A DNA stretch of 36,728 nucleotides, taken from positions 1 through 36,728 of the IMG/VR virus record IMGVR_UViG_3300036791_001063; one strand, 5' to 3'. The stretch's first letter is position 1; the number at the start of each line of letters is the position of its first letter. Shown in pieces: positions 6,414 to 36,728 of the stretch. The translations under genes and the position numbers were made by a program. Under the pieces are notes generated by a model. That model ran no database searches. It was given only the letters and a program-made list of their open reading frames with translations, and had not been told where the DNA came from. The stretch comes from a virus.

Positions 6414-6610
6414 TGCCGATCAGATCCGCAAGCGGCCAGGTGCTTCCGAGCCTGTCGGGCACGAGCTTTCCGTTGGCGCCGCAGCAGATGAACATGAACG
6501 CGGTCTGGGCGATGCGCCGGCTGCAACGCCAGCAATCGAGTCTCGGCAAGCAGGCGCCGCCCGGCAAGATCCAGGGCCCGCCGCGACCACTGAAGTTGAA
6601 GAGGTACTGA
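6413..6610 (+). CDS. Small basic virion-operon protein, unknown
   Basis: The product has 65 residues; ATG 6413 overlaps the previous stop as TAATG, and its own stop overlaps the next ATG as TGATG. The chain is Gln/Arg/Pro-rich with one predicted helix (about 24-42) and a basic PRPLKLKRY end. It lies between two Ala/Gln-rich virion proteins and is presumably co-translated with them. Confidence 0.65.
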   Translation: MPIRSASGQVLPSLSGTSFPLAPQQMNMNAVWAMRRLQRQQSSLGKQAPPGKIQGPPRPLKLKRY

Positions 6611-8391
6611 TGGCTGTCACCAACGTCACCGGGGGCGGGACTCAGGTTCGCGTGCCACTGCCGACCGCTGCGCAGGTCGCGCAGTTTCAGGCGCAGCAGA
6701 ACGCTGCGGGGAATAGAGCCCTCGCCGCGGGAAAGATCACGGGGCGACCGGTCACGACCACGCCGCAGTTCACCGGCAACACGTACGGCACGGTGCCGAA
6801 CACCGTGAACACGTCGAAGCCGGCGCCGAAGCCCGCGGCGAAGCCTGCTGCGGCGAAGCCGGCGGCTCCCACGAAGCCGGCACCGAAGCCTGCGGCGGCG
6901 AAACCACAGGCGAAGACGACCGTCACGATCAAGCACAACGTGACGGGCCACCCCAACGTCACGGTCGCGCATACGCACCCGGCTGCCCAGCCGAAAGCAC
7001 CGCAGCAGCCCGTCAGCCTTGCTCAGCGTGCCGCCAACATGGGCGTCGTCAACCCGGCGTACAACTACTCGAGCGCGCAGTTGCTGCAGATCGCGCGGCA
7101 GATCACGGCCGGCCAGACCAACGCGGTCGTCAATCCGCTGCGCCAGCAGGCCGCCGACATCGGCGCTCAGGGCCGCGCAGCCACCGGTCTCTACCAGGCC
7201 GGGCTCGCGAAGGGCCAGAACATTCTCGCCGGGCTGGCGGCCGATCAAGCCGCGGGCCAAGGCCAGCTCGCGGGCGCGCAGACGCAGCAGGCGCAGGACG
7301 TCGCGAACATGATCAGCGGTGCCGGCAACACGGCGACGCAGCTGTACGGCGGCACGCTGTCGCCGCAGGCGCAGGCGGCGCAGCAGGCAATCGCTGGCGC
7401 TGCCGGCGCGACCGCCGGAGCTCGCACCGCATTCACCAACACGGCCGCACAGAACCAGGCCAACTACCTCAGAGATCTGCGCGGCAACGCGGCAGCGGTG
7501 GCGGGTCCGGCGGGCGCCGCGCAGCTCGGGACGGCGTACGCGCGGCTGTCGGCGCCGGTCCAGCAGGCGATCCAGACCGCGCTGTCGAAGCAGGGTCCGG
7601 CGGCGAAGCAGTTGGCGCAGACGCTCGGCCAGCAGCAGTTCGCGAACCAGATCCTGCGCAAGGAGTACGGCCTCAAGGCGTACACGGCGCAGACGCAACG
7701 CAAGGTTGCGACCTACAACTACCTGCTCGGTCAGGGCAAGGAGCAGATCGCGGCGGCGAACTCGCAGACCGCGGCGTTCAACGCGCAGACGCAGCGCGCG
7801 TACGACCAGGCGAAGACTAAGAACGACGTGGCCAACACCCAGCTGAAGACGTATCTCGGCAACCAGAACATCGCGATCCGCAACGCCCAGCTCGCGATCA
7901 ATCAGGCGAACGCGGACACCGCAGCGGGCCGGTTGACCGAAACTCAACGCCACAACCGTGTGACAGAGCAGCAGGCGATCATCAAGCAGGCGAGAAAGAA
8001 CGCGACGAACCCGACGAGCCTCAAGGGGATCGGGAACATCTACACGGCGATGGGCGTCTACCGCAGCAACACCCAGATCCCGCACGCCTACACGAATGCC
8101 GCGGGCCAGTCGGTGACAGGCAAGGTGCCAGCGGTGCAGGCGCGCGTCATGCTGCACGGCGATCGCCGCTTCTCGGGACCGGAGGCCGAGGCGGCATACG
8201 AGATGGTGACCTACGGCTACATCTCGCCGACGACCGAGCGGCAGTTGCGCCAGTCAGGCGTGAATCCGCCGTACTCGATGTTGACGAAACGGCCGACGAG
8301 CGGCGCTGTGTCCGCCGCAGGCCGCAACACTGGTGGCGTATCGGGTCGTGCCCAGGTTCCCAAGAGCGACATCACCGCCCCGAAGAAGTAG
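6610..8391 (+). CDS. Large Ala/Gln-rich helical virion protein (internal/ejection-type candidate)
   Basis: The product has 593 residues from ATG 6610. The N-terminus (VTGGGTQVRVPLP) matches that of the 5571 gene. Residues about 70-120 are a Lys-Pro-Ala linker (repeated KPAPKPAA-type units). Residues about 130-480 are nearly all Ala, Gln, Asn and short helices, which suggests long amphipathic helices or coiled coils. The C-terminal 100 residues are more globular. Long helical proteins in this position are often internal or ejection proteins that cross the wall with the DNA. A tape-measure role is less likely, because there are no hydrophobic segments and the nozzle-like protein argues for a short tail. 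Confidence 0.7.
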   Translation: MAVTNVTGGGTQVRVPLPTAAQVAQFQAQQNAAGNRALAAGKITGRPVTTTPQFTGNTYGTVPNTVNTSKPAPKPAAKPAAAKPAAPTKPAPKPAAAKPQAKTTVTIKHNVTGHPNVTVAHTHPAAQPKAPQQPVSLAQRAANMGVVNPAYNYSSAQLLQIARQITAGQTNAVVNPLRQQAADIGAQGRAATGLYQAGLAKGQNILAGLAADQAAGQGQLAGAQTQQAQDVANMISGAGNTATQLYGGTLSPQAQAAQQAIAGAAGATAGARTAFTNTAAQNQANYLRDLRGNAAAVAGPAGAAQLGTAYARLSAPVQQAIQTALSKQGPAAKQLAQTLGQQQFANQILRKEYGLKAYTAQTQRKVATYNYLLGQGKEQIAAANSQTAAFNAQTQRAYDQAKTKNDVANTQLKTYLGNQNIAIRNAQLAINQANADTAAGRLTETQRHNRVTEQQAIIKQARKNATNPTSLKGIGNIYTAMGVYRSNTQIPHAYTNAAGQSVTGKVPAVQARVMLHGDRRFSGPEAEAAYEMVTYGYISPTTERQLRQSGVNPPYSMLTKRPTSGAVSAAGRNTGGVSGRAQVPKSDITAPKK

Positions 8392-11300
8392 ATGGCGCCG
8401 CCGCTGACAGGCGTCTGGCTGCACATCGCGCAGCTCGTCGCCCAAGCGAAAGCGACGCAGGCGAAAACGGGCAAGCCCGCATTCCCCTCGCCGGCGCGTG
8501 GCGTCACGGGCGGCGTGTCGGCGGCGAAGCCCGCACCGGCGCGCGGTGTCGCGGGAGGCTACCGGCCACCACCGCCGCCGCGGCCTGCGTCGCCGCCGCG
8601 GCCTGCTCCAATCGTCGGCAAGGTGTACGCACCGGGCCGCTCGTTCGGTCCCGTCGCCGGCAAGGTGCAGGTGCCGGTCGTGCCTGCGAAGGCGCCGAAG
8701 GCGGCGGTGGCAATTCCGACGAGGCCGCCCCTGGTGAGAGTGCCGGTGACGCCGCAAGCACGACTGCGGATGATCCGAGCAGCCACGCCGAAGCCGCCCG
8801 CGATGCCGAAGGCTCCGAAGGGCATGCCGCTACGGGTGGTGACTCCCAACGGGCCGGGACTGCTGCCGACGACGAGTCGCTACGACCCGAGCTCCGGCTC
8901 GTGGATATCGGATGCGGCGGTCACGCGCATGCTGAATCTGGGGCTCTCGGCAAGCAAGGCGACGGGCAAGACCATGATCGCGCTGCCGCCGCCGGTGCGG
9001 GTGCTGCCACGCGGCACGCAGTCGACGCCCGCGATCTGGAACCCCTACCAGAGCCGCTATCTCAACTCGAAGGAGATGGACCAGGCGCGCAGCCAGATGC
9101 TGGCGACCGGGCGCAACCCGGTGATCGGCGGCCGCACGCTGCCGGTTCCGCGCAACGTCTACAACTACTGGACGACACCGAAGCCGGGCGGCGGCATCGG
9201 CGGCGACATTCGCTCGGCGACGAACTGGCTGGCGCAGGCCGGCATGACTGGCGGTAACTGGCTTGGCACGGCAGCCGCGAACGCGGTCGGCACGACCGGC
9301 GCCGAGGCAGCCAAGATCGCGCAGACGTTGACGCCGAGCTTCGGCAAGGGTCCCGGCGGCGGCGCCGGCAAGGGACCGCCGATCGCGACCGGCATCACGC
9401 CTGCAGCGGCGATCCTCGAGGGCCGCAAGCTGGTCCAGAGCGGCGTCAGACAGATCGTGAGCTCGACGGCCGAGGCGGTACCGAGCGCGTACTTCGTCGG
9501 CCAGGCAGCACGCCAGGCGGTCGAGGGAGACCCGACGCAGCTCGACTCGATCCTCAAGCAGCAGTGGGACGCGCTGACGACCGCGAAGGGCTGGGAGCAG
9601 AACTGGGCGAACAACATTCTGCTGCTGCGTGGCCTGTGGGACGCCGGCACGGCTGGGGCGCTGCGCTTCAGGCGCGTCGTGAGCGCGATGCCGGCCGCGC
9701 AGCGCGAGATGGTCGGCGGCATCTTCCGCGGCGGTCCGATCGGCAAGCTAGTGGAGCTGCCGCCGGCGGGTGGCGAGCGCTCGCCGCTCGTGATCAAGCA
9801 GGGCACGGAGATTCCGCGCCAGTCATGGGCGCTGGGGCGAGCGAAGCGGCGCGCGCAGATGCTGCGGGGCGCACCCTGGTATCGCAAGGCGCTGCGCTTC
9901 GGGCCGGTCCGCGACAACCCGATGGTCAACGCGAAGGGCGAGGCGACCGGCGTCTACCACCAAGTCGTCAAGCACCTCAACGACTTCATGGTCGGACGCG
10001 ACCACACCGATCTGCGCCACGGCCGCCAGGCGATCCAGGCCGAAGCGCTCAACCGCATCACGGACACGCGCTCGAGCGCGCGCTGGCAGGCCGCGAAACG
10101 GCACGCGCTCAACCCCTTAGAGCCGCTGTTGCACCCGATCATGAACGGGGCGGACCTGCAGAGCCTGATCGCACAGGGCGCGATCAGGGCGAACCGTGGC
10201 AGGGCCATCTTGGAGGCCGACATCCGCAAGGTCAGGGATATCTTCGCCAAGGAGCAGCACAAGCCGGGCTCCGTCGAGGAGCAGATCCAAGCGCACAATG
10301 TCAACGTGCTCGAGGGGCTGCTGCACAATGACCAGTTCCTCGACCATCCGATGGACGTGCTGAATGCGGCGCGTCAGCAGGCGCGCGCGATGAACCCGAT
10401 GAAGGACGAGATGGTCGACCGCGGCCTCTTGAACGGGGCGGCCGGCGATCGTGCGCCGCTGCAGCCATTCCAGTATGTGCAGCAGGACGCGCGCATGGGC
10501 TTGACGCCGGAGGGACGGCTGTACGAGCGCGCGAACGCGGACTACCAGCAGGCGCGCCAGGAGTGGCTGCAGGCGCGCAACAGCCTCTGGCGCGGCGTCC
10601 ACGGAGGACCGAGGGTGCGTGTCGAGTCGTCGTCGAACATCAAGGGTCTGCGGATCGTCGCCGAGAACGCGCAGGCGAAGATGGCGAAGGCGCTGGAGTA
10701 CCGCAACGGCCTCGAGAAGCAGGGCTTCAAGGGCCAGGAGGGCATGATCCACCCGGACAGCTACCCGGACCTCGTGGTCCACAAGGGCCGCGCCGGTCAG
10801 CCGCACGAGCGCGCCGGCGAGGTCGTCACGAACGAGGAAACGCACGCCGCGATGCGCGGCGAGGGCATCGATCCGGCGGACGTGACGCATGTGTCGCACC
10901 GGGCGATGACGGACGAGCAGGCGGCGTACGGCAGCATGACGCGGCTGCCGCTGGCGGCGACCAAGCGCCGCACGATGGCGTCGTTCGCAGGCGGCCTGAT
11001 CGACATTTCCCACAACGCGCTCGTGAACCAGCACATGGCGATGTGGCAGAAGATCGCGCGCACCGATCACATCGTTAGCTTCATCCGCGAGTTCGGGCTG
11101 CCGGCGAGCCCGACGAACGCGGCATTCCGGCTGCTGAAGCAGGCGCGCGACGCGGCCAACAGCAACGAGTTCAAGGACGCGCACGGGATCCCGCACAACG
11201 TCGAGCTGACGGTCATGCGCGGCCCGCCCGAATACGCGACCCACATGCAGGCAGCCGCACTGAACCGGCAGATCCTGCAGAATCGCAACCTCGCCGACGT

Positions 11301-12846
11301 CGGCCAGCACGAGGAGGACTTGCTGCCCAACGAGGCGGACGCGACACCGTTGACGGCGGCTGAGGCTGCGACGCACGGCGCCGGCGACCAGGCGGCCGGT
11401 CCGTGGGTTGTCGTGATCAAGTCGGCGCTCGACAACGAGCTGCAGCACGAGCGCGCGACCGGCTACAACTTCATCCGCGGCGTCGGCGACATCTCGAGCC
11501 GCTTCCGGATGGCGGTGCTGCCGTGGTCGCCGCGCGCTGTTGTCGGCGCTCCGATCGAGACCGGGATCCGGGCGCTGCCGGCGGTCGGCGGCAACCCGTT
11601 GGGGTTGGCGCGTGGCTGGCGCTATGCGGGCAACGTGGCGCGCGAGTCGAGGTTTGAGAAGCGGGGACGGGTGACTGTGCCCGTGAGAGTACGCAAGGCG
11701 CCCGTAGCCGGTTACGGGGTGCGCGGCACGCTCGAGAACATGAGCATCGACGACGCGAGCAGCCCCAAGGCTCAGAAGCTCGCGAAGCAGGCGCTGCGGG
11801 GAATCCAGGCCGACATCGGCGTCGGCAACTACGGCGGCCAGGCGCTGCGCGACGTCTACCACGTCCCCGATAAGCGCTACCAGGGCCCGATCGTGGACAA
11901 GAGTCGGGCCGCCTCGGAGCTCATTCGCCGTCTGCCGGGGCCCGGACATCTCGTTAAGTACTTCACGGCGTCATCGAAGAACGTCCTGGCAGCCACGCGG
12001 CGGTTCTGGGAGATCCAAGGCAACCGGGCCGTGTATGGCCACCGCATGCTGCAGACGGCGCAGGAGCAGTTCCCCGAGAAGACGATGCGTGACCAGATGC
12101 GGGCGATGACACCGGCGATCACGGATCTGCTCGAGCACGGCAAGATGAACACGCCGGCGCAGCACGCGGCAATGGCGGAGATGGAGCGCGCGATGGGCAA
12201 GTACGCGAACCAGGGTCCGCTGATGCGCGGCATCCTGAACTTCGCGCCGTTCCTGAGCTGGACGCTGAACTCGTACAAGTTCCTCTTTGCGGTATTGCCG
12301 TCCGACCATCCTCTGCTGACGGGCCTGCTGGCGGCGGCGAACACGGCGACGGCGCAGCAGCGTGCCGCGGCCGGCTTCGGCGGGCCGGGCCAACGAGGCG
12401 AGGTGCCGGGCTACGAGGAGTCGGGGCTGCCGCTGCCGGGCAACAAGGTCGCGACGACGTTCGGCTACTACGGGCCGTCCAGCGCAGTCGGTGACTTTCC
12501 GTCGTCGTTCACGAGCCAGGTGCTGCCGTGGGCGCAGCCGGCGATCCTCGCGGCCGGCGGTGTCGACTACACGTTCCGGGTTCCGAAGAACGCGCAGGGC
12601 AAGCGTGTCCCGCTGAGCTTGTGGGACCGGGTCGTGCTCGGCTTCACGAGCACGGTCAACGCTGCGGTACCGGGCGCCGAGCCGATCACGCGGCTGATCC
12701 AGAATCCCGGCAGCTTCCTGAACCCGTTCGGGATTCGCGCTGCGTATCCGGCGATCACGCCGAAGAAGCCCGGCGGCAGCTCGGGCTTCAGCACCGGCAG
12801 CGGCTTCAGCTCGGGCTTCAGCAAGGGCAGCGGCTTCGGCGGATGA
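8392..12846 (+). CDS. Giant internal/ejection-type virion protein
   Basis: The product has 1484 residues; ATG 8392 directly follows the previous TAG. Residues about 20-150 are Pro/Ala/Lys-rich and probably disordered. The middle (about 200-1150) is mixed helical. A Trp/Phe-rich, partly hydrophobic section (about 1260-1320, including NFAPFLSWTLNSYKFLFAVL) could insert in a membrane. The last 25 residues are a Gly/Ser/Phe repeat (SGFS, GSGF units). Size, position before the wall hydrolase and the late hydrophobic segment fit ejection proteins that form a conduit through the envelope. No catalytic motif was recognised, and the functional call is inference. Confidence 0.7.
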   Translation: MAPPLTGVWLHIAQLVAQAKATQAKTGKPAFPSPARGVTGGVSAAKPAPARGVAGGYRPPPPPRPASPPRPAPIVGKVYAPGRSFGPVAGKVQVPVVPAKAPKAAVAIPTRPPLVRVPVTPQARLRMIRAATPKPPAMPKAPKGMPLRVVTPNGPGLLPTTSRYDPSSGSWISDAAVTRMLNLGLSASKATGKTMIALPPPVRVLPRGTQSTPAIWNPYQSRYLNSKEMDQARSQMLATGRNPVIGGRTLPVPRNVYNYWTTPKPGGGIGGDIRSATNWLAQAGMTGGNWLGTAAANAVGTTGAEAAKIAQTLTPSFGKGPGGGAGKGPPIATGITPAAAILEGRKLVQSGVRQIVSSTAEAVPSAYFVGQAARQAVEGDPTQLDSILKQQWDALTTAKGWEQNWANNILLLRGLWDAGTAGALRFRRVVSAMPAAQREMVGGIFRGGPIGKLVELPPAGGERSPLVIKQGTEIPRQSWALGRAKRRAQMLRGAPWYRKALRFGPVRDNPMVNAKGEATGVYHQVVKHLNDFMVGRDHTDLRHGRQAIQAEALNRITDTRSSARWQAAKRHALNPLEPLLHPIMNGADLQSLIAQGAIRANRGRAILEADIRKVRDIFAKEQHKPGSVEEQIQAHNVNVLEGLLHNDQFLDHPMDVLNAARQQARAMNPMKDEMVDRGLLNGAAGDRAPLQPFQYVQQDARMGLTPEGRLYERANADYQQARQEWLQARNSLWRGVHGGPRVRVESSSNIKGLRIVAENAQAKMAKALEYRNGLEKQGFKGQEGMIHPDSYPDLVVHKGRAGQPHERAGEVVTNEETHAAMRGEGIDPADVTHVSHRAMTDEQAAYGSMTRLPLAATKRRTMASFAGGLIDISHNALVNQHMAMWQKIARTDHIVSFIREFGLPASPTNAAFRLLKQARDAANSNEFKDAHGIPHNVELTVMRGPPEYATHMQAAALNRQILQNRNLADVGQHEEDLLPNEADATPLTAAEAATHGAGDQAAGPWVVVIKSALDNELQHERATGYNFIRGVGDISSRFRMAVLPWSPRAVVGAPIETGIRALPAVGGNPLGLARGWRYAGNVARESRFEKRGRVTVPVRVRKAPVAGYGVRGTLENMSIDDASSPKAQKLAKQALRGIQADIGVGNYGGQALRDVYHVPDKRYQGPIVDKSRAASELIRRLPGPGHLVKYFTASSKNVLAATRRFWEIQGNRAVYGHRMLQTAQEQFPEKTMRDQMRAMTPAITDLLEHGKMNTPAQHAAMAEMERAMGKYANQGPLMRGILNFAPFLSWTLNSYKFLFAVLPSDHPLLTGLLAAANTATAQQRAAAGFGGPGQRGEVPGYEESGLPLPGNKVATTFGYYGPSSAVGDFPSSFTSQVLPWAQPAILAAGGVDYTFRVPKNAQGKRVPLSLWDRVVLGFTSTVNAAVPGAEPITRLIQNPGSFLNPFGIRAAYPAITPKKPGGSSGFSTGSGFSSGFSKGSGFGG

Positions 12847-14072
12847 TCTCGCCGACGGCATCGCTCGGCGCGAAACAGATCGTGCTCGGCGCGATGGCGA
12901 AGCACGGGATCACGCCGGGTGCGGCGAACCGGGCGATCCAGTCGCCGGACTTCACCGTCAGCGTGCTGCACGCGATCGGGGCTCCGGTCACGCCGAATAC
13001 GACTGCGGCGCTGCAGGAATGGCAGCGCGCCGAGGGTGGCCCCCACGACAACCCGATGAACACGACGCTCGGTCAGGCTGGTGCGCAGGGTTCTGCGATC
13101 AAGGGTTACGGGTCGACGAACGCCGGCATCGACGCGACGGTGAAGACGCTCCAGAACGGTCTCTACCGCAACGTGATCAAGGCGTTTCAGAACAACCAGA
13201 GTCCAGCCCAGATCCGCCAGGCGATCATCAACTCGCCGTGGGATGTGAACCATTACTCCGGCACGGATTTCGCGAGAGGCCTGATCTCGGCGAAGGGCTA
13301 CTCGGCGCCTCCGGCGAAAGGAGTCCAGCCGCAGCAGCTGCAACAATCGAATCTGCTGTCGTTCCCGGCGCTGCCAGGAATCCCGAACATCCAGGCGATC
13401 AAGCTGCCGAACGATCAAGCGGCGACGCAGACACGGCTCGAGGCGCTGACCAGCATGCTGCGCGCGAATCCCGGCAAGGCGCTGACGACGAGCCAGCTCT
13501 TGCGCGCAGCCAGCCTACCGACGAGCGCGCAGGCAATGCCGACCGTGAACATCCCGAACCTGCCGAACCCGCCAGCGCCCCCGAACATCGGCAGTTCCAC
13601 GACGACCACTCCGCCGGCGACGAGCAAAGACCCGTTCGGTGGCCCGCTCGTCAAGCCCAACTTCTATGGTCACCCCGAGAACGTTTCGAGCAGCGTGCGG
13701 ACGCTGATCGCGCTGATGGAAACCAAGTTCCCTGGCTTGCAGGTCACCTCGACCCTGTCGGGCTCGCACGCCCAGGACTCCTACCACTACCGTGGCGAGG
13801 CCGTCGACATGGCCGGTCCGCCAGCAGTGATGAATCAGGCGGCGCAATGGATCATGAGCTCGGGGCTCTACCGTTCGCTGGTCGAGGCGATCCACAATGG
13901 CGGCGGCGGTCTCAGCGTCAAGAACGGCAAGATCGTGCCGTCGAGCTTTTGGGGAGCGCCAACGTGGGCGGAGCACGCCAACCACATCCATCTCGCGCTC
14001 ACGGGTACGATCGGCGGCTTGCACGTCCATCCGCAGACCGGGGCGGTGATCCCATACCGAACGCAAAAGTAA
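12843..14072 (+). CDS. Virion-associated peptidoglycan hydrolase: lysozyme-like plus M15-like peptidase domains
   Basis: The product has 409 residues; ATG 12843 overlaps the previous stop (ATGA). Residues about 50-150 carry a lysozyme-like pattern (W60-QRAEGG with E64 as candidate acid, NPMNTT, GYGSTNAGIDATVKTL). A Pro/Asn/Ala-rich linker runs to about 265. The C-terminal domain has the M15 peptidase signature S313-Y-H315-x2-G-x-A-x-D322 and, later, H381-I-H383, so H315, D322 and H383 are the expected zinc ligands. There is no signal peptide, as expected for a protein carried in the virion. Role: local cutting of glycan strands and peptide stems during DNA entry, with possible help in lysis. 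Confidence 0.85.
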   Translation: MISPTASLGAKQIVLGAMAKHGITPGAANRAIQSPDFTVSVLHAIGAPVTPNTTAALQEWQRAEGGPHDNPMNTTLGQAGAQGSAIKGYGSTNAGIDATVKTLQNGLYRNVIKAFQNNQSPAQIRQAIINSPWDVNHYSGTDFARGLISAKGYSAPPAKGVQPQQLQQSNLLSFPALPGIPNIQAIKLPNDQAATQTRLEALTSMLRANPGKALTTSQLLRAASLPTSAQAMPTVNIPNLPNPPAPPNIGSSTTTTPPATSKDPFGGPLVKPNFYGHPENVSSSVRTLIALMETKFPGLQVTSTLSGSHAQDSYHYRGEAVDMAGPPAVMNQAAQWIMSSGLYRSLVEAIHNGGGGLSVKNGKIVPSSFWGAPTWAEHANHIHLALTGTIGGLHVHPQTGAVIPYRTQK

Positions 14073-29536: not shown

Positions 29537-29770
29537 GTGCGACTGAAGCCAGCGAGAGTCGAGGCGCCACTCGTCGTCGGCGAGGAGCGCGAGCTGCTCG
29601 AACGGCTGATTGGATGCGAGCGCCAGATCGCGGATCTGCGAGCGCGCGAGGCGAGGATGCGCGAAGCGGTCGCGTGGGCCGCGATGACGGCGAAGGGCCT
29701 GTCGCTCGACGCGGTCGCGGAGATGCTCGAGGCGTTGCTGTTCGATCAGGGCGGGAGTCGCGGCGGTTGA
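29537..29770 (+). CDS. Coiled-coil-like small protein, last gene of the plus block
   Basis: About 77 residues from GTG 29537 (start uncertain; the frame is open further up). It is rich in Glu, Arg, Ala and Leu, with heptad-like spacing (ERELLERLIGCERQIADLRA). The 78 bases to the convergent gene at 29849 contain a CGCCG/CGGCG hairpin without a T run. Confidence 0.5.
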   Translation: MRLKPARVEAPLVVGEERELLERLIGCERQIADLRAREARMREAVAWAAMTAKGLSLDAVAEMLEALLFDQGGSRGG

Positions 29771-29848
29771 TGAGTCCGCCGCGCCCCCGCGGGACAACGC
29801 CGCTACCGACGGCGTCACCACTTTACCTGCGTGTCGCGCCGAAAATGT

Positions 29849-30052
29849 TTACGATTCGTCGCGGCTTTCTGCGCTCTTCGGCCAGAGCGTCAGCGCAATC
29901 GCGCGGATCCGCTCCTGGCGCTCCAGCGGCAGCTCGTGAACAGCCCGTTGGGCTTGGCCGCGCAGCACCTCGTACTCGACGAGCAGCGCGAGCCGAGATA
30001 GCGCGGACACGCCGGTCTCGATCTCCCCGTAGATGTCGTTCAGCGAGGTCAC
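29849..30052 (-). CDS. Small helical protein, last gene of the second minus operon
   Basis: 67 residues from GTG 30052, which overlaps the upstream stop (GTGA). Sequence SLNDIYGEIETGVSALSRLA, then an acidic/basic helical rest. Longer frames to 30349 lie inside the next gene. No family recognised. Confidence 0.5.
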   Translation of the reverse strand: MTSLNDIYGEIETGVSALSRLALLVEYEVLRGQAQRAVHELPLERQERIRAIALTLWPKSAESRDES

Positions 30053-30543
30053 CGGCGCTTGCGCGCCTCGCGCGCGACAACGAACGGATTCATCGGCTCC
30101 GAGCAGCGCATCACCTCGGCGCAGATCGCCGCGACCATTTCGACCACGAGCGGCCGCGGGCGCGGCTTCCCGGCATACCCGTAGAGGTTGCGTTGGATCA
30201 GCCGCAGCGCCTCGGCGCCGGCGCTCTGAGAGCCCGCGTGCTCGGCGCCCCATAGCACGCCGGCGAGCTCGGCGGTGTCCATGAAGTACTCGCCGTCCGC
30301 CGGCAGTCTCGCCTCGCTCATTTGGTCTGGCTCCGCCACGAAGGCGCAATGCCAGCGATTCGTGATGACCCGCTCAGCCCACCGGTCGAGCAGCAGCTGA
30401 TCTTCAACGGCGGCGGCGCCCAGCATGTGCCGTTGCTCCTCGACCGTGAAGTACGCGCGTACCTGCTCGGGCGAGCCGAACCGGTCGCCATAGTCGAATC
30501 CGGTCGCGTCGCTTATCTCCTGTTCGAGACTGTCAATGCCCAT
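30049..30543 (-). CDS. Unknown protein
   Basis: The product has 164 residues. ATG 30543 is chosen for the GGAAGG site seven bases upstream, part of the repeated leader described elsewhere. N-terminus GIDSLEQEISDATGFDYGD; mid-region YFMDTAELAGVLWGAEHAG; end FVVAREARKRR. Mostly helical and acidic, with no motif known to me. The tRNA-like element lies 42 bases upstream of this start. Confidence 0.65.
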   Translation of the reverse strand: MGIDSLEQEISDATGFDYGDRFGSPEQVRAYFTVEEQRHMLGAAAVEDQLLLDRWAERVITNRWHCAFVAEPDQMSEARLPADGEYFMDTAELAGVLWGAEHAGSQSAGAEALRLIQRNLYGYAGKPRPRPLVVEMVAAICAEVMRCSEPMNPFVVAREARKRR

Positions 30544-30584
30544 CTGTTCACCTTCCCATCTCAAGAGCCGCCCGATTGCGGCAT

Positions 30585-30626
30585 GACGCGGTAGCGGAGT
30601 CGAACCGCCATTGACCATCCCGCGTC
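30585..30626 (-). ncRNA. tRNA-like minihelix (acceptor stem plus T-arm)
   Basis: On the minus strand GACGCGG (30626-30620) pairs with CCGCGTC (30591-30585). Between them are a 10-base linker and a T-arm, GGCGG-TTCGACT-CCGCT (one G-U pair), with the usual 7-base T-loop. The D and anticodon arms are absent. It lies between the 30645 gene and the 30543 start in a transcribed operon. It may be a tRNA relic, a processing site or a regulatory RNA; homologous elements recur at 32980 and 34501. Confidence 0.45.
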
Positions 30627-30644
30627 TTTACTTCTGCTTCGGTC

Positions 30645-30923
30645 CTAACGCGACCGCAACGCCCGCCAGAACATCCACGCCCATACCAGCACGCCCAACA
30701 GCGGGCCCCAGCCGTCGAGCGTCGGAATCCCGCTCGGTCTGAAGCCCCACAACACGACCAGCGCCAGCGGGATCAACCGCGGCAGCAGGTAGCGCACGAT
30801 CGTGCGCCGGCGCCGCCAGATATCGATCAGCGCGCCGAACGGCTGCACATCCTTGATCGAGCTCGCGCCGTCCAACGTCAGCGCGATTGGCACGACGACG
30901 AGCAGCAGCACGAACGACCACAT
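30645..30923 (-). CDS. Membrane protein with three hydrophobic segments
   Basis: The product has 92 residues from ATG 30923 (the ATG three bases earlier, at 30926, is possible); GGAGG lies seven bases upstream. Hydrophobic stretches about 3-19 (FVLLLVVVPIALTL), about 52-64 and about 74-86, with a basic turn (WRRRRTIVRYLLPR). A small integral membrane protein of the early block; function unknown. Confidence 0.65.
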   Translation of the reverse strand: MWSFVLLLVVVPIALTLDGASSIKDVQPFGALIDIWRRRRTIVRYLLPRLIPLALVVLWGFRPSGIPTLDGWGPLLGVLVWAWMFWRALRSR

Positions 30924-31195
30924 CATGGCTCCTCCGCGTCGGCGCGCCACACGATCTGATTGATCCGACCGATCGTCAGATCCACCACGGTCGCGACATC
31001 GCGCCGCGACCAGCCGCCATCGACCGCTTGCATCACGACCAGATTGCGCGCCTGGCGCAACCGCTCCGTCTGCTCAGCTGCAGCACGATAGGTCCGCTCA
31101 GCCGCGACCAGATCGGCCACGGTCACCAGCATCGCCGGCCGCGATGAAAACCCTTCCTCGCCCATGTCCCAGTCGATAAGGCTATCCGAGCTCAT
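30923..31195 (-). CDS. Small HTH-type protein
   Basis: 90 residues from ATG 31195 (ATGA overlap). The C-terminal part QAVDGGWSRRDVATVVDLTI and GRINQIV fits a helix-turn-helix of the ArsR/resolvase-like size. The N-terminus is acidic, with a helix rich in Ala/Glu/Arg (LVAAERTYRAAAEQTERL). It may regulate the early operon. Confidence 0.65.
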   Translation of the reverse strand: MSSDSLIDWDMGEEGFSSRPAMLVTVADLVAAERTYRAAAEQTERLRQARNLVVMQAVDGGWSRRDVATVVDLTIGRINQIVWRADAEEP

Positions 31196-31659
31196 GACAC
31201 GCGGCCGCAGTGCGGGCACGGCTCCGTCAGGTCAAGCGCGCACGCCTTGCACGTCCACTGCTTGCGGCCCAGCGCGACCGCGACATGCTCTGCGAGCGTG
31301 CTTGCATAGTCGGCGTACTCGTCAGCCTCGCGAGGACTCGTCATGCCCCCGCACGCGCACGGCACCTCGGCGCTGATCTCCCAGCCATCGCCGCGACTGT
31401 TGGGCTGCAGCCGAAACACGACCCCGTCGACGCTCCAGCGCCAGACGTTGTAGTTGCCCCACCACACGCGGCCGCCATCCTGGCGCGGCGCCTTCACGTT
31501 GACCACGTCGAGCTCGACGATCTCGTAGCCCTTGCCGCCGCGACGCTCGAGCTCCTCGCGCTGCTCGACACGCCGGCGCTCGCGCGCCTCGGCGTGCTGC
31601 TGATGCGTCCGTTCGCGCTTCGCCTGCGCCTGCTCGGCGCCTTGTTCCATCAGCCCCAT
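31192..31659 (-). CDS. Coiled-coil protein with zinc ribbon
   Basis: The product has 155 residues. ATG 31659 is chosen for the GGAAGG box eight bases upstream; GTG 31668 is nearer that box than normal. N-terminal Glu/Arg/Gln helix (QAQAKRERTHQQHAEARERR), a Trp-rich middle, then PCACGG and a C-terminal zinc ribbon CKAC-ALDLTEPCPHC. A DNA- or RNA-binding protein, function unknown. Confidence 0.65.
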   Translation of the reverse strand: MGLMEQGAEQAQAKRERTHQQHAEARERRRVEQREELERRGGKGYEIVELDVVNVKAPRQDGGRVWWGNYNVWRWSVDGVVFRLQPNSRGDGWEISAEVPCACGGMTSPREADEYADYASTLAEHVAVALGRKQWTCKACALDLTEPCPHCGRVS

Positions 31660-31707
31660 CACATTCACCTTCCCTTGTCGGTATCCCGCCAGTGAGCGAG
31701 CGCCGCG

Positions 31708-31730
31708 GGCGCCAGGAAGATCCCAGCGCC
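31708..31730 (-). other. 10-bp hairpin in the gap before the 31659 gene
   Basis: On the minus strand GGCGCTGGGA folds onto TTCCTGGCGCC with a 3-base loop (10 pairs, two of them G-U). It sits after the 31747 gene and is followed by the repeated ACAAGGGAAGGTGA leader. Possible processing site or attenuator; no T run follows. Confidence 0.5.
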
Positions 31731-31746
31731 AGCCGCGTCCGTTCCG

Positions 31747-31932
31747 CTAGGCCTGATCCTGACTCTCGGCATCCGTCGCAGCCCACGCCTCGTTGATCGC
31801 GCGGCTGAAGTGATCGCGCGTCCAAGTGAGCTCGCGGTCATCCGGCGCAATGAATCGCACGCGCTCGCGGTCCGAGAGCGTGATGTCGACGATCACGACG
31901 ACGCCGTCATAGACGATCTGTGCGCGATCCAT
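31747..31932 (-). CDS. Small acidic protein
   Basis: 61 residues from ATG 31932, which overlaps the upstream stop (TGATG). Sequence MDRAQIVYDGVVVIVDITLS and an acidic DDRELTWTRDHF part. Short beta then helix; no family. Confidence 0.6.
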   Translation of the reverse strand: MDRAQIVYDGVVVIVDITLSDRERVRFIAPDDRELTWTRDHFSRAINEAWAATDAESQDQA

Positions 31933-32264
31933 CAGGATCCCCGCTCCGCTGCGATCCGATCGCGCACAAGCGCTGCGTGTAGCTCGCCCATGAGCAACGT
32001 CACGCTGACCTTCGTCGCCGTGTCCGTACCAGCCGCCCAGCCGCCATTCGCGCTCGAGCCGACCTCGCCGAGCGCCCAGTAGACGATCTGCGCCTCATCC
32101 GTCGACAGCACGCCCGAGACATGCGCGTGGGCCTGCGCCTCCTGGTACGCGAAGTGCTCCTCGAAGTCGACCGCCATGTCGTGGTCGAGGTTCTCGCGTG
32201 CGACATCGTCGAGAGCTGCGACGCGCGTCCGCAGCTCGGCGATATGCCTCTCGATTCTGTTCAT
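31932..32264 (-). CDS. Unknown helical protein
   Basis: 110 residues. ATG 32264 is chosen because GGGAG stands five bases upstream, whereas 32276 and 32345 are poorly placed. N-terminus MNRIERHIAELRTRVAALDD is helical, a His/Glu-rich middle follows, then an Ala/Gly end. No motif recognised. Between its start and the 32346 stop lies an 81-base spacer with nothing notable. Confidence 0.6.
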   Translation of the reverse strand: MNRIERHIAELRTRVAALDDVARENLDHDMAVDFEEHFAYQEAQAHAHVSGVLSTDEAQIVYWALGEVGSSANGGWAAGTDTATKVSVTLLMGELHAALVRDRIAAERGS

Positions 32265-32345
32265 CGTTGCTCCCATGTCGTGTTGATTCGCCCAAGTGGG
32301 CAGGACCGCGCGCCGATCCGCGAGCGCACGCGCGGTTGACTGCAT

Positions 32346-32715
32346 CTACGCGAGCTCGACGTCCTCGCCAAAGATCGTCCACGGCGCCAGATCGTTCGCG
32401 TAATCGTCATCAGGCGTCCACACGACCTCGTTGTCCCAAACGCTGTCCACTCGCGATCGCCGTCGTGTAGATGACGCGCCGTCCAGTCGCTCAGCCAGTC
32501 CTGTACGAACGCCCACTGCGCGTAATCGTCGAGGTTCACGATCGCCTCGTCGCGCTCGAACCCCTCAGGACCGACCCACGAATCGTCGCCAGGATCCGCC
32601 TCGAGACCCAGCGAGCGCGCGCCTGATCCTCCGCGGCGTTCGCGCTCGCGAACGGACCGTAGATCGTCGGGTCACGCCACATCCCGCCATCGACGTACAG
32701 CAGCGCGTACGTCAT
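32346..32715 (-). CDS. Conserved-looking small protein broken by two single-base frameshifts
   Basis: From ATG 32715 the chain begins MTYALLYVDGGMWRDPTIYG. At 32607-32609 the sensible reading moves one frame (GLEADPGDDSWVGPEGFERD, then NLDDYAQWAFVQDWLSDWTA). At 32447-32448 it moves again (DSVWDNEVVWTPDDDY, ending FGEDVELA at the stop 32346). Each break is mended by one extra G in a G run, which gives 123 residues with no internal stop. The mended protein has acidic and Trp/Asp-rich helices. ATGA overlap with the gene above. Unknown function; sequencing error is the first explanation to test. Confidence 0.65.
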
Positions 32716-32936
32716 GACTCCTCCAACACGGCGCCATACTCCGCCGCGAGCGCGCGCGCCTGCGGCAACGTGACCCACCGCGGCGGCGGCCGGTCAGGAT
32801 CGAACGGGCGGCTGAAATACCCTGGCGCGACCTCTACCGCCTCGACGAGATCCGCCGGCGTATAGACCTCGACCGGCCCGATCGGCACGCCGTCGACATC
32901 GTCCTCATGCTTGAACACCACGCGGTGTCCCTCCAT
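32712..32936 (-). CDS. Small unknown protein
   Basis: 74 residues from ATG 32936 (MEGHRVVFKHEDDVDGVPIG), with GGAAGG seven bases upstream in the repeated leader. Beta/acidic N-terminus and a helical end (LPQARALAAEYGAVLE). No family. Confidence 0.6.
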   Translation of the reverse strand: MEGHRVVFKHEDDVDGVPIGPVEVYTPADLVEAVEVAPGYFSRPFDPDRPPPRWVTLPQARALAAEYGAVLEES

Positions 32937-32979
32937 CACGTCACCTTCCCTTGTCGTTTGATCCCGCCATCAGGCGGAG

Positions 32980-33028
32980 CGGCGCGCCGCGGACTCGAAC
33001 CGCGGCCATGGGCAACCTGCCCGCGCCG
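32980..33028 (-). ncRNA. Second tRNA-like minihelix
   Basis: On the minus strand CGGCGCG (33028-33022) pairs with CGCGCCG (32986-32980). Inside is a small hairpin GGCA-GGT-TGCC (33021-33011), then a T-arm CCGCGG-TTCGAGT-CCGCGG (33005-32987) with a 7-base T-loop. It is followed by CCGCC-TGAT-GGCGG (another small hairpin) and the ACAAGGGAAGGTGA leader of the 32936 gene. The anticodon arm is lacking. Confidence 0.45.
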
Positions 33029-33035
33029 GCGCTGC

Positions 33036-33176
33036 TCAGCGATCCTCGAAACCGTGCCACCGAACCCACAGATCGCGCACGCGCTCGAGCGCCTCGAGAT
33101 CCTCGAGCCGGCCCTCCGGATCGTTCCCGGGCTCGAGCCCATCGTCAGCGATGAACTCCTGCGTCGACTCGATCAT
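33036..33176 (-). CDS. Small acidic protein
   Basis: 46 residues from ATG 33176 (IESTQEFIADDGLEPG; then EDLEALERVRDLWVRWHGFED). The start is uncertain: a strong GGAGGGG box about 30 bases upstream serves ATGs in a different frame. Helical, acidic; no family. Confidence 0.5.
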   Translation of the reverse strand: MIESTQEFIADDGLEPGNDPEGRLEDLEALERVRDLWVRWHGFEDR

Positions 33177-33211
33177 GCCGTCGAGTACGTTCCGTCATCC
33201 TCATCCCCTCC

Positions 33212-33949
33212 TTAGTGCAGCCTGTAGTTGACCCAGCGAACGCTGGGATCCCAGCACGCGCGACAGTCGCCGCACGAATTGCCCTGATCGAGCGACGGAC
33301 ACTGATGTGCGTCCGCGGCGTCATCGCAGCCCACGGTCGAATACGCCAGTCCGAGCGGATCCTCCTTGAAGGTCTCGCCGACCATGTGGTTGGAGATCCG
33401 TACGTTCAAGTTCGGCGGGATCACGCCGCCGCGCCGCAGGTACTCCCGTACGATCCCGGTTTCGCGGGTAGGGATCCAATATTCGACGTCTTCGGTCTCC
33501 CGAGCAACCGCACAGATAGCCGCGAAGTGCTCGACCGACTGGATATCGCCCGAATCGTGCCAGCGACCATAGCCGCACGCACTCGGTTTCGAGTGCGGCT
33601 GAGAACCTTCGGCGCGGCTCCACAACCACGCTTGGGCTGCGACCCAGTCCGGATGTCCAAGGCTCGCTATGCGCCGCGCGTGCGCCGCTTTAACGTTCTC
33701 CTGGGTGTAGAAACCACCCATGGCGTAGCACTCAATGTCCGAGTCGGCCGGCCCCGCACAAACGGATCCCGGCACGTTTCGCAGCTGACTGCCAGTGATG
33801 CAGTCCAGCGCCGACAGACCGTACGTATGCCCCGGCATCTTGGACGCCTTACCGAGCAATCCGCCAACCACGCGCGCCGCTGCGGAGTCGATCGCCCCGA
33901 GCTTCGCCCCAGACTCGGCTAACGCCACCAAGTCAAATTCGTGCTCCAT
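33212..33949 (-). CDS. GP88 family protein
   Basis: The product has 245 residues. ATG 33949 is chosen for the GGAAGG box six bases upstream. Pattern: KMPGHTYGLSALDCITGSQL, GSVCAGPADSD-ECYAMGGFY, WLWSRAEG, FRWHDSGD-type RWHDSGDIQSVEHFA, IPTRETGIVREYLRRGG, then HQCPSLDQGNSCGDCRACWD. This matches the phage GP88 family, whose cysteines suggest metal binding, perhaps an Fe-S site; activity is unknown to me. It begins near the top of the second minus-strand operon. Confidence 0.85.
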   Translation of the reverse strand: MEHEFDLVALAESGAKLGAIDSAAARVVGGLLGKASKMPGHTYGLSALDCITGSQLRNVPGSVCAGPADSDIECYAMGGFYTQENVKAAHARRIASLGHPDWVAAQAWLWSRAEGSQPHSKPSACGYGRWHDSGDIQSVEHFAAICAVARETEDVEYWIPTRETGIVREYLRRGGVIPPNLNVRISNHMVGETFKEDPLGLAYSTVGCDDAADAHQCPSLDQGNSCGDCRACWDPSVRWVNYRLH

Positions 33950-34031
33950 GTCATCCCTTCCCATGTCTTCCCGTCGGTAGTGATCGGGTGCCAGCACCCG
34001 GACCGTAGCCCAGGTGCTCGCATCCGCTCCG

Positions 34032-34178
34032 CTACTCGCAGGCCGCGATAAACGCCTCGAGGCCGCCTTCGTAGTGGCGATGCACCGCGGCGATGACCTC
34101 CGCGTCCGTTAGGTGCTGCGGGCAATCCTCGAAGCAATCCGCGAGCCAGTCGCGCGCCTCGACGAGCTCGAACCCCAT
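34032..34178 (-). CDS. Small Cys-containing protein
   Basis: 48 residues from ATG 34178 (MGFELVEARDWLADCFEDCP), with GGAAGG four bases upstream. The frame is open to 34292, but the ribosome site decides for 34178. Acidic, helical, three Cys. First gene of the second minus operon. Confidence 0.6.
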   Translation of the reverse strand: MGFELVEARDWLADCFEDCPQHLTDAEVIAAVHRHYEGGLEAFIAACE

Positions 34179-34254
34179 CAGACCTTCCTCAGGCCGCTCC
34201 TCAAGTCGCGCTTCGCATGCTGCACTGACGTGATGTCCCATGTCCGACTCCCAT

Positions 34255-34500
34255 GTCCTGCGGCCGCCGAACGCGACCGACCAACACAACATACACCCCT
34301 ATCACGACGAAGGCGACGGTACCCCGAAAACCCAGCAGCCGCGGGCAATCACGGATCAACCAAACGTCCAGACCCGACCCCCAGAGCCCATATCACCCCA
34401 CAGCCCACGAGACCAACCAAGACTACGACAAGCAACAGCAGAACCCAACCAACCAAGCAACCACAACAGACCGAACCAGACAGACAAAGGGGAAGCCGCT
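34255..34500 (-). other. GT-rich non-coding leader
   Basis: No gene on either strand. On the minus strand the segment is unusually rich in G and T (TTGGTTGGTTGGG-type runs), unlike the coding DNA around it. It lies upstream of the minus-strand early operon. A promoter or leader is likely; a site for an initiator or a G-rich structured leader is possible. The strand bias suggests a long untranslated RNA. Confidence 0.5.
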
Positions 34501-34558
34501 CGCCTTGACTCGAACCGAAATCGCCATCCCGCCTTGACTCGAACCGGAATCGCCATCA
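34501..34558. repeat. Tandem 29-base repeat with T-loop-like core
   Basis: Two adjacent copies (34501-34529 and 34530-34558) differ at two positions. Each contains, on the minus strand, GGTTCGAGTC, the T-loop-like core also found in the two minihelices. The stretch from 34559 to 34820 shows no gene and nothing else I recognise. Confidence 0.85.
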
Positions 34559-34821
34559 CGCGTGATTAGCAGCTCATCGCTGGTCGCCGCGGCGCACAAG
34601 CAATCCCTTGCCAGCATTGGCCGGCTGGCCGCACTTGACACAAGCACAACAGCGCCTCGAGACCACGCCACAGACCCTCCGGCGACCCTCTCCGCGGCCG
34701 CGCAACCTTGGCATTTGCGCATGCGCGAGCGCGGCATAGCACGGGGGGCACGGCAGTCATCGGCGTCCTGAGCGTTCCCGTGAGAGGGTCCCGTCCAGCC
34801 ATTTGAGCCTTCTCGGGGCCT

Positions 34822-34870
34822 GATATCACGCCTCCTCCGCGCCCCGTGATATCACTCCCGGCGATATCAC
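34822..34870 (+). promoter_or_regulatory. Three GATATCAC operator boxes
   Basis: GATATCAC at 34822-34829, 34848-34855 and 34863-34870. The middle copy is a full palindrome GTGATATCAC (34846-34855). They are 26 and 15 bases apart and end 17 bases before the start of the triple-RHH gene. Iterated short palindromes near a ribbon-helix-helix gene are typical of autoregulation. A promoter is not clear. Confidence 0.75.
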
Positions 34871-34886
34871 TCGATCGGAGGTCGTG

Positions 34887-35444
34887 ATGGCCGAACTGAA
34901 GGCTGTGGCGTGGCGTTTTCCGCCGGTGCTGGTGGATGCGTTGGATGTGCTGGCGGCGGAGCGTGGCTGGTCGCGCAATCGGGCGGCGGTCGAGATCTTG
35001 GGGTTGCATTTGGGTATTGGGGCGGGCGAGCTGCCGGCCGTCGAGCCTTCGGCTTCCGTGCCTCCCGATGAGGATCCCGAGCCGATGTTCTTCCATCGCT
35101 CGAAGCTCGCGGAGATCGACCGCCGGCGTGGCGATAAGAGCCGGGGCGAGTGGGTTAGGACTGCGGTCGAGGAGATCTTGGGCGCGGGCCCGAAGGCGTA
35201 TACCACCACGGATCCGTTGCCGCTGGAGCTGTCGAAGGCTCTGAACCGCTACGCGACGGAGCACTCGCTGGGCTACGCCGAGGCGATCGAGTTCGCGGTC
35301 TGCTGCCTGCTGGGTGTGAAGCCGCCGCCGGGGCCTGAGCCGCAGGGCGCGTGGTATCGGCCGACGAGTGCGGAGGCGAAGCGCGGTGTCGAGGTCGATC
35401 CCAAGCTGCTGGAGGATGCGTTGACGAGGGGGAGAAGGCGATGA
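34887..35444 (+). CDS. Triple ribbon-helix-helix DNA-binding protein
   Basis: The product has 185 residues from ATG 34887 (GGAGG five bases upstream; GTG 34884 also possible). Three RHH-like units: about 5-41 (AVAWRFPPVLVDALDVLAAE, RNRAAVEIL), about 70-99 (SKLAEIDRRRGDKSRGEWVR) and about 109-143 (LPLELSKALNRYATEHSLGY). Pro-rich linkers join them. A single chain with three units could bind several boxes at once. It likely represses its own operon through the GATATCAC sites and may be the small terminase or a packaging regulator, since the terminase follows; both uses are inference. Confidence 0.7.
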   Translation: MAELKAVAWRFPPVLVDALDVLAAERGWSRNRAAVEILGLHLGIGAGELPAVEPSASVPPDEDPEPMFFHRSKLAEIDRRRGDKSRGEWVRTAVEEILGAGPKAYTTTDPLPLELSKALNRYATEHSLGYAEAIEFAVCCLLGVKPPPGPEPQGAWYRPTSAEAKRGVEVDPKLLEDALTRGRRR

Positions 35445-35629
35445 TGGCCGATCCGTTGGTGGCTACGCGTCTTTTGGTGCGCCGCTCGGAACGCGAGCGT
35501 CAGGCCTATGTGGCGGGATTGCGGGCGGCGATCGACACGCTGGAGCGGCTGGGATCTAAGCGGGGGTTGATCGCGTTGCGCGCGGCGGTGGAGCTCGGAC
35601 AATTGGAGCGAGATGCGGATCAGGATTGA
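35441..35629 (+). CDS. Small protein between RHH regulator and terminase
   Basis: 62 residues from ATG 35441 (ATGA overlap with the previous stop; ATG 35444 also possible), with GGAG six bases upstream. Arg/Leu-rich helices (VATRLLVRRSERERQAYVAG), likely DNA- or terminase-associated. It overlaps the terminase start by 17 bases. Confidence 0.6.
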   Translation: MMADPLVATRLLVRRSERERQAYVAGLRAAIDTLERLGSKRGLIALRAAVELGQLERDADQD

Positions 35630-36719
35630 CTGGCAGGCGCTCGAGGCGCTTCCGAAGCGCGAGCGCGAGCAGGCCCGTTCTCTGCTGGAGGAGTATGAGC
35701 GCGCGCTGAAGGCGAATCCGCTCGAGGGTTACGTGCCGCATACGAAGCAGGAGATCTTTCACTACTCCCGGGCGCCGGCGAAGTGTTTCTACGGCGGCAA
35801 TCGCAGTGGCAAGACGACGGCGGGGATTCTGGATGATCTGATCCAGACGGTGGATGACAGCGTCGTGCCGGATCATCTGAAACCGTACAAGTGGGGTCGG
35901 CCGCCGTTCTACTGCCGGATCGTGACGCCGGATTTCACCTCGACGATGGAGGGCGTCGTGTTCCAGAAGCTGCGGGATTGGACGCCAAGAGGCCAGCTGA
36001 TCGGTGACTCCTGGGACCGGGCCTACGAGAAGCAGCACCGGCGGCTGAATTTCAAGAACGGGTCGTGGTTCGACTTCATGACGTTCGAGCAGGATCTCGA
36101 CAAGTTCGGTGGTGTCGCTCTTCACAGGGTTCACTACGACGAGGAGCCGCCGAAGCTGATTCGCCAGGAGTGCCAGTTCCGGCTGCTCGACTTCGCGGGT
36201 GACGAACTGTTCACGATGACGCCGCTGAAGGGCATGAGCTGGATGTTCGAGGAGTTCTACGACCCGTGGGAGAGGGGCGTGCTTGAGGATGCGTCTGTCG
36301 TGCTGGTCGACATGGATGACAACCCGTATCTGGATGAGCGCACGAAGCAGCGTGTCCTCGCGGGACTCAGTAGGGAAGAACGTGCTGCTCGAAAGTCCGG
36401 TCGTTTCGTGCATTTCGCTGGCATGGTCTACCCGGAGTTCAACCGCGCCACCCATGTCACCCCTAGTGCTGCTGTTCCTGAGAACGCCACTGTGGTCGGA
36501 GCTATCGACCCAGGAACAAGACATATGGCGGCGGTGGTGTGGGCGTATCTGGGTACCAACGACGATCTGGTCATCTTCGAGGAGCTCGGGTTGCCGGAGA
36601 TGACGGTCGCCCAGGTCTGCAAGCGGATCCGCCTGGTCGAGGCGAAGCACCAGCTTCACATCAATGCGTACATCATCGATCCTGCTGCCAGGAACACGAG
36701 CCATCAGACGGGTCGATGA
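35613..36719 (+). CDS. terL: Terminase large subunit, frame broken near the window end
   Basis: 368 residues visible from ATG 35613. Walker A G61-GNRSGKTT (K67), Walker B VALHRVHYDEE (D176-E177), coupling motif TMTP (201-204) and the start of the nuclease domain: VVGAIDPGTRH (D299) and YIIDPAARNTSHQTGR (D356). It packages DNA with ATP and cuts concatemers. A TGA at 36717-36719 ends the frame inside the RNase H-like nuclease, where more is expected. One extra base in the G run 36710-36712 would keep it open to the window end (reading SMMYA). The true 3' end is outside the window. Confidence 0.85.
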   Translation: MRIRIDWQALEALPKREREQARSLLEEYERALKANPLEGYVPHTKQEIFHYSRAPAKCFYGGNRSGKTTAGILDDLIQTVDDSVVPDHLKPYKWGRPPFYCRIVTPDFTSTMEGVVFQKLRDWTPRGQLIGDSWDRAYEKQHRRLNFKNGSWFDFMTFEQDLDKFGGVALHRVHYDEEPPKLIRQECQFRLLDFAGDELFTMTPLKGMSWMFEEFYDPWERGVLEDASVVLVDMDDNPYLDERTKQRVLAGLSREERAARKSGRFVHFAGMVYPEFNRATHVTPSAAVPENATVVGAIDPGTRHMAAVVWAYLGTNDDLVIFEELGLPEMTVAQVCKRIRLVEAKHQLHINAYIIDPAARNTSHQTGR

Positions 36720-36728
36720 TGTACGCAT

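Follow-up and report, generated by a model that had tools for sequence, protein, structure and literature searches.

The leftward operon and its flanks

The window, by which we mean the whole 36,728-nucleotide stretch that was analyzed (IMG/VR record IMGVR_UViG_3300036791_001063), is a fragment (36.7 kb) from the genome of an uncultured tailed phage with high GC content. A terminase gene lies on the plus strand at its right end (35613-36719); the product has a Walker A motif (GGNRSGKT) and matches PHROG terminases, and its closest GenBank relatives, at ~32% amino acid identity, belong to Arthrobacter phages. The last bases of the window (36713-36728, TCGATGATGTACGCAT) repeat, in inverted orientation, a stretch ~50 bases before, and L005 diverges there; the inversion probably arose as a fold-back during assembly and cuts the terminase short.

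From ~34.2 kb to 29.8 kb runs a leftward block of small genes, among them a GP88-family gene (33212-33949, minus strand; Pfam PF17338), a gene encoding an HTH protein (30923-31189), and two minus-strand genes without assigned function (30049-30543 and 32712-32936) that follow the elements A and B described below. No intrinsic terminator (hairpin and then a T run) was found at 29600-35700. Upstream of the operon lies R (34503-34560, minus strand), an unstructured 29-bp tandem repeat that carries GGTTCGAGTC twice. Between R and the first leftward gene, the minus strand is strongly T/G-rich (34290-34500), with no match to a sigma-70 promoter.

Two tRNA-like minihelices in intergenic gaps

A sequence-only reading of this DNA had proposed that the minus strand at two intergenic sites, each just upstream of a gene with the same ribosome leader, folds into a 7-bp acceptor-like stem and a T-arm (TTCGA(C/G)T) with no anticodon arm; sequence and fold confirm the elements and their placement. 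Element A (30585-30626, minus strand) reads, from 30626 to 30585, GACGCGG GATGGTCAA TGGCGG TTCGACT CCGCTA CCGCGTC: a 7-bp acceptor, a 9-nt linker containing GGU, a 6-bp T-stem, and the loop UUCGACU, with an MFE of −20.3 kcal/mol. Element B (32980-33028, minus strand) reads, from 33028 to 32980, CGGCGCG GGCAGGTTGCCCATGG CCGCGG TTCGAGT CCGCGG CGCGCCG; its loop is UUCGAGU, and its 16-nt linker contains a small GGGCA-GGT-TGCCC hairpin that resembles a miniature D-arm (GGGCA-GGU-UGCCC in RNA). Each element is thus a minihelix of 42-49 nt, with an unbroken acceptor-plus-T-arm stack of 12-13 bp, a tRNA-perfect T-loop (GGTTCGA[C/G]TCC), and GGU in the linker. Folding energy is ordinary for such GC-rich DNA (z of −2.0 for A and −1.1 for B in tight windows, and ∼−0.1 to −0.6 in wider ones), so stability provides no argument for either element.

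Like a tRNA gene, A and B have a 7-bp acceptor and a T-arm with a 7-nt TTCRANY loop, though their T-stems have 6 bp where tRNA has 5; their linkers, of only 9 and 16 nt, hold no D-arm plus anticodon arm of a tRNA gene. ARAGORN found no tRNA gene in the window, and both elements score below the Rfam tRNA gathering threshold; on these grounds, we rejected A and B as tRNA genes. In a relaxed-threshold Rfam search, the window's two top bit scores were for tRNA-like families exactly at A and B, both sub-gathering; B matched the mascRNA-menRNA covariance model (RF01684) weakly, at 24.6 bits, short of the gathering threshold of 42.5.

The joint tRNA geometry of A and B is far beyond chance. Our scan required a T-loop closed by a perfect stem of 5 to 7 bp, a perfect 7-bp acceptor stacked beneath that stem, and a short linker; the window gave two matches, A and B only. 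Dinucleotide shuffles of the window yielded a mean of 0.026 minihelices, and two were seen in 0 of 2,500 shuffles; when GG..CC closure was also required, the shuffle mean fell to 0.0004. In real phage sequence, the same scan returned one weak match in the 393 kb from terminase relatives (in L004, lacking the GG closure) and no match in the 953 kb from GP88 loci, that is, one weak minihelix in 1.35 Mb of other phage loci pooled. A chance origin of A and B is ruled out by the shuffles and by this 1.35 Mb.

A probable repeat family with limited covariation

The window contains exactly four copies of the T-loop block CGGTTCGASTC (CGGTTCGA[C/G]TC), always on the minus strand and outside called genes: once in A, once in B, and twice in the R tandem repeat, whose copies (34506-34560) have the form GCGGGATGG-N6-CGGTTCGAGTC (first copy, GCGTGATGG). 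The block's presence in R as well suggests that A and B belong to a small family of repeats. The resemblance extends to a 5' block, GCGGGATGG, common to A and R and located 6 to 7 nt upstream of the T-loop block; for A versus R2, the 5' block match has a P value of 0.006 against shuffles and 0.001 against 21-mers of the window. The counterpart in B is GCGGGCAGG, at a longer spacing (13 nt). Across the whole window, CGCGGG-NN-GGT and ATGG-N0-4-CGGTTCGA are found at A and B alone; taken on its own, the similarity of their 5' halves falls short of significance (P = 0.12).

With these blocks as anchors for aligning A to B, both members of three stem pairs differ and pairing is kept (A-U/G-C, U-A/C-G, and G-U/C-G). 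We read these compensations by hand, MAFFT having given no structural register for the two elements. The covariation is modest, being that of A versus B in one genome; the search for covariation proposed in the sequence-only reading therefore yielded stem compensation between the two elements themselves and none from relatives.

This shared sequence bears on two other explanations. A and B, together with R, may be remnants of decayed or miniaturized tRNA copies that spread as a repeat and have no present function, perhaps tRNA-Met minus its middle: GCGGGATGG, found in A and R, is similar to the 5' end of tRNA-Met (GCGGGGTAG in L115 and L116), the 5' block is held in common by A and R2, and the copies of R have no fold at all (z = +1.6). 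However, the stems of A and B are perfect despite their differing sequences, and decay should break pairs. We regard this origin as unlikely, and the earlier suggestion of a decayed tRNA is borne out in its sequence resemblance but not in the state of its stems. If A and B are inert remnants, they would show the spread of tRNA pieces as small repeats in phage intergenic gaps.

Alternatively, the repeat may act at the DNA level: a phage regulator would bind GCGGGATGG-N6/7-CGGTTCGASTC, and the RNA fold would be a by-product. In favor of this, the tandem copies R1 and R2 have no structure and lie ahead of the operon, and the operon encodes an HTH protein. This explanation is very unlikely: the sequence is not palindromic, the spacing in B differs, and the complementary flanks that make the minihelices of A and B are left unexplained.

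Position of the minihelices relative to a hairpin and a start leader

The layout at A and B is the same: a minihelix, a 5- to 6-bp hairpin, a shared Shine-Dalgarno leader, and an ATG. The hairpins directly 3' of A (30567-30582, minus strand; GCCGC/GCGGC) and of B (32963-32978, minus strand; (C)CGCC/GGCG(G)) lie ≤4 nt after the minihelix; the base rate of such a hairpin is 14% per site. The leader GACAAGGGAAGGTGA or a near variant then stands 4 to 5 nt ahead of the ATG, as GAGATGGGAAGGTGAACAG before ATG 30543 (30544-30562, minus strand) and GACAAGGGAAGGTGACGTG before ATG 32936 (32937-32955, minus strand). In total, there were five matches to the start leader at ≤3 mismatches, compared with 1.1 expected, and 0 of 100 shuffles gave as many. 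The frame of the gene after A is open through the element up to ATG 30618; we prefer ATG 30543 as its start because, of the two, it alone is preceded by the Shine-Dalgarno leader.

The shared ribosome leader reported earlier is real at both genes (GGGAAGGTGA at 30557 and 32950), but it is not peculiar to them, because it also heads the gene after gap C (at 31674), which has no T-loop. Gap C (31660-31746, minus strand) has a plain, tall hairpin and the same start leader (31679-31665). Gap D (32265-32345, minus strand) has a hairpin, a second hairpin (GCCCACTTGGGC), and the leader GACATGGGAG; gap E (33950-34031, minus strand) has a perfect 11-bp hairpin (z = −4.2) and the leader GACATGGGAAGG before the GP88 gene. 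The hairpins of gaps C, D, and E are all without T-loops, and variants of GACATGGGA head the genes after gaps D, E, and F. Exact words of ≥9 nt common among the gaps number 14, compared with a shuffle mean of 1.8. Genes after gaps C to E carry leaders of this kind, so such a leader does not require a T-loop. These start-associated sequences thus make up a family, and the tRNA-like fold is one of the structures that can occupy the slot ahead of them.

Such a slot is reminiscent of the start-associated sequences (SAS/ESAS) of cluster K mycobacteriophages, in which a short, conserved sequence that includes the Shine-Dalgarno immediately precedes small nonstructural genes and some SAS have an inverted repeat immediately upstream (PMC3203893). 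The likeness lies in the repeated, ribosome-binding-site-containing, GACAWGGGAAGGTGA-like leader a few nucleotides from start codons in gaps A, B, C, and E. The SAS consensus GGGATAGGAGCCC has no match at ≤2 mismatches, and we rejected the cluster K SAS as the identity of the leader. The upstream structures also differ: a 17-bp inverted repeat there, and here, at A and B, asymmetric bipartite minihelices with a one-sided linker.

The plain hairpins and related leaders of gaps C, D, and E raise the possibility that A and B are ordinary structured leaders as well, in an operon where, much as with SAS/ESAS, every gap combines a hairpin with a start leader, with the T-loop incidental and no tRNA enzyme involved. 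In L143 (same genome as L133), GGTTCGATTCC serves as a hairpin stem arm and not as a loop, which fits an incidental T-loop. We consider this explanation possible, if somewhat improbable: a generic hairpin seems too unspecific to explain why a consensus T-loop is combined, twice, with a 7-bp acceptor and a linker on one side only.

Comparison with related phages

Terminase alignment added 27 viral contigs as relatives, and none of the 27 has the minihelices. Only L026 is syntenic with the leftward operon (GP88, 46% identical; 29089-29526 gene, 74% identical); its operon is shorter and lacks both A and B, and one gap has a plain hairpin plus a ribosome-binding site with no T-loop. The stem conservation in relatives that the sequence-only reading had called for was thus not found in this one syntenic relative.

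Homologues of the elements were absent from all other searches. Against phages, blastn with the region or with A and B as query returned tRNA T-arms and unrelated stretches only; a T-loop-plus-leader pattern in viral contigs returned mostly ordinary tRNAs near chance leaders, and the leader pattern returned unrelated coding DNA. Protein queries from 8392-12846 and 30049-30540 against viral contigs, and terminase alignment against genome contigs, likewise gave no element homologue. The T-arm/acceptor 21-mer of A has no match among genomes of 84,980 species, although the host may be unsampled.

The relatives do contain tRNA sequences. L113, L115, and L116 have an intact tRNA-Met 1 to 2 kb before the terminase, which would fit the tRNA remnants considered above; these genes share the strand of the terminase, whereas R, A, and B are on the other one, and the unmatched 21-mer of A also speaks against a tRNA origin. 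L127, L130, and L132 carry TGGTAAGGAAGGGGTC(G/A)CCGGTTCGAGTCCGG... on the minus strand (L127:3148, L130:3804, and L132:4183), which we read as the 3' half of tRNA-Thr(GGT). Because a tyrosine integrase is nearby in two of them (1.1 kb off in L127 and 0.4 kb in L130), these halves are likely attP sites of temperate relatives.

Could A or B likewise be an attP carrying the 3' end of a host tRNA? Despite the precedent in these relatives, and a T-loop and acceptor sequence like those of phage tRNA genes and attP tRNA halves, this is highly improbable. The window has no tyrosine or serine recombinase (PF00589 and PF00239 absent), though the record is a fragment and an integrase could lie outside it; there are two copies, both in the leftward operon and without an anticodon arm; and the 5' strand of the acceptor is present too. 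With no integrase in the window and no sampled genome that matches A at its 3' end, the two elements are probably not attachment sites.

A more distant GP88 relative than L026, L045 (IMGVR 3300005535_000025), has a repeated two-hairpin leader before small genes at 9500-13050, in the order tall variable hairpin, TGTCCCTNCGGGACA, and ACACGAAAGGAG. In seven copies, 99% of cells are paired and 19 cells are compensated, a result reached in 0 of 500 shuffles. L045 has no Rfam match, and the leader is a candidate for a phage RNA motif without a name. Its strong covariation argues that, in at least one such phage, selection maintains RNA structure ahead of small-gene starts, and it lends weight to an ordinary structured leader in the window as well. 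We do not claim the two-hairpin module as general, because a strict scan for it showed enrichment in L045 only and not in the window or the terminase relatives. Hairpin-plus-start-leader modules here and in L045 may represent a common, little-studied layer of phage gene expression.

A possible role as tRNA-like leader elements

We tentatively favor, at rather less than even probability, the explanation that A and B are two members of a small repeat family of the leftward operon, acting in cis as tRNA-like leader elements of the next gene. Of the three possibilities raised in the sequence-only reading (a site for RNase P or another tRNA enzyme, a structured leader, or a decayed tRNA), each of which finds partial support, a structured leader fits best because each element occupies the slot before a small hairpin and the shared start leader. 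Once the polycistronic mRNA is made, the minihelix would fold and be recognized as the top half of a tRNA, most plausibly by host RNase P. A cut by RNase P would detach the upstream message, and the transcript of the downstream gene would then begin with structured RNA and the gene's ribosome site. Even uncut, the element would still serve as a structured insulating or stabilizing leader.

While the fold and placement of A and B are read from the DNA itself, recognition by RNase P is what we infer from them, with support from geometry and precedent. A stacked acceptor/T helix of ~12 bp with a T-loop is typical of an RNase P substrate of the mRNA/tRNA-like kind, and A and B have 12 to 13 bp, along with GG in the linker. 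On the other side, the 3' RCCA of such substrates is missing at both elements, whose acceptors are followed by ATGCC (A) and CTCCG (B); its absence, together with the lack of conservation in L026, weakens the case for cutting. As for precedent, both polycistronic mRNAs and the C4 RNA precursor of phages P1/P7 are cut by the bacterial enzyme, and many of its non-tRNA substrates are thought to be tRNA-like (PMC4919922). These intercistronic sites and the C4 precursor are like A and B in being non-tRNA RNAs, a phage RNA among them; they differ in that here the fold directly precedes a ribosome leader and has no 3' RCCA.

mascRNA/menRNA (RF01684) and the t-elements of plant mitochondria offer a second likeness: a tRNA-like top half, without a full anticodon arm, in a longer transcript. 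Their T-arm consensus is like that of A and B, and mascRNA is the best Rfam match to B. They have been shown to be RNase P substrates, whereas A and B are putative ones, and organism and context differ.

A stronger version of the RNase P proposal, in which A and B are minimal, anticodon-less tRNA mimics that punctuate the phage operon and host RNase P (possibly with RNase Z) excises each minihelix, seems to us distinctly doubtful. If it is true, the downstream gene would gain a processed, hairpin-protected 5' end with a ribosome site, in a bacterial counterpart of mitochondrial tRNA punctuation made from tRNA top halves. Should A and B be true cut sites, an element of only 42-49 nt would let a phage borrow its host's essential tRNA maturation machinery to split an operon message.

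Several other short elements came to light in these contigs. At L012:6412 and L008:119, short tRNA-like sequences with an acceptor, a T-arm, and a 17- to 25-nt middle lie near phage tRNA genes and are possibly truncated tRNAs. L017 has several nearly identical copies of a cassette (TTGACTTCTAGGAGTCGGTGCCCTATCTG ... GGGGCAATCCTGCCCCTTTTTGGAGTCTGCCATG) at 5380-6870, in which a promoter-like sequence is followed by a terminator-like hairpin right before the ribosome-binding site; it resembles per-gene attenuator modules. Finally, the GP88-bearing phages L042, L043, L058, and L064 contain ATTTTCTTGT 13 to 16 times per 18 to 21 kb, in a stoperator-like pattern.
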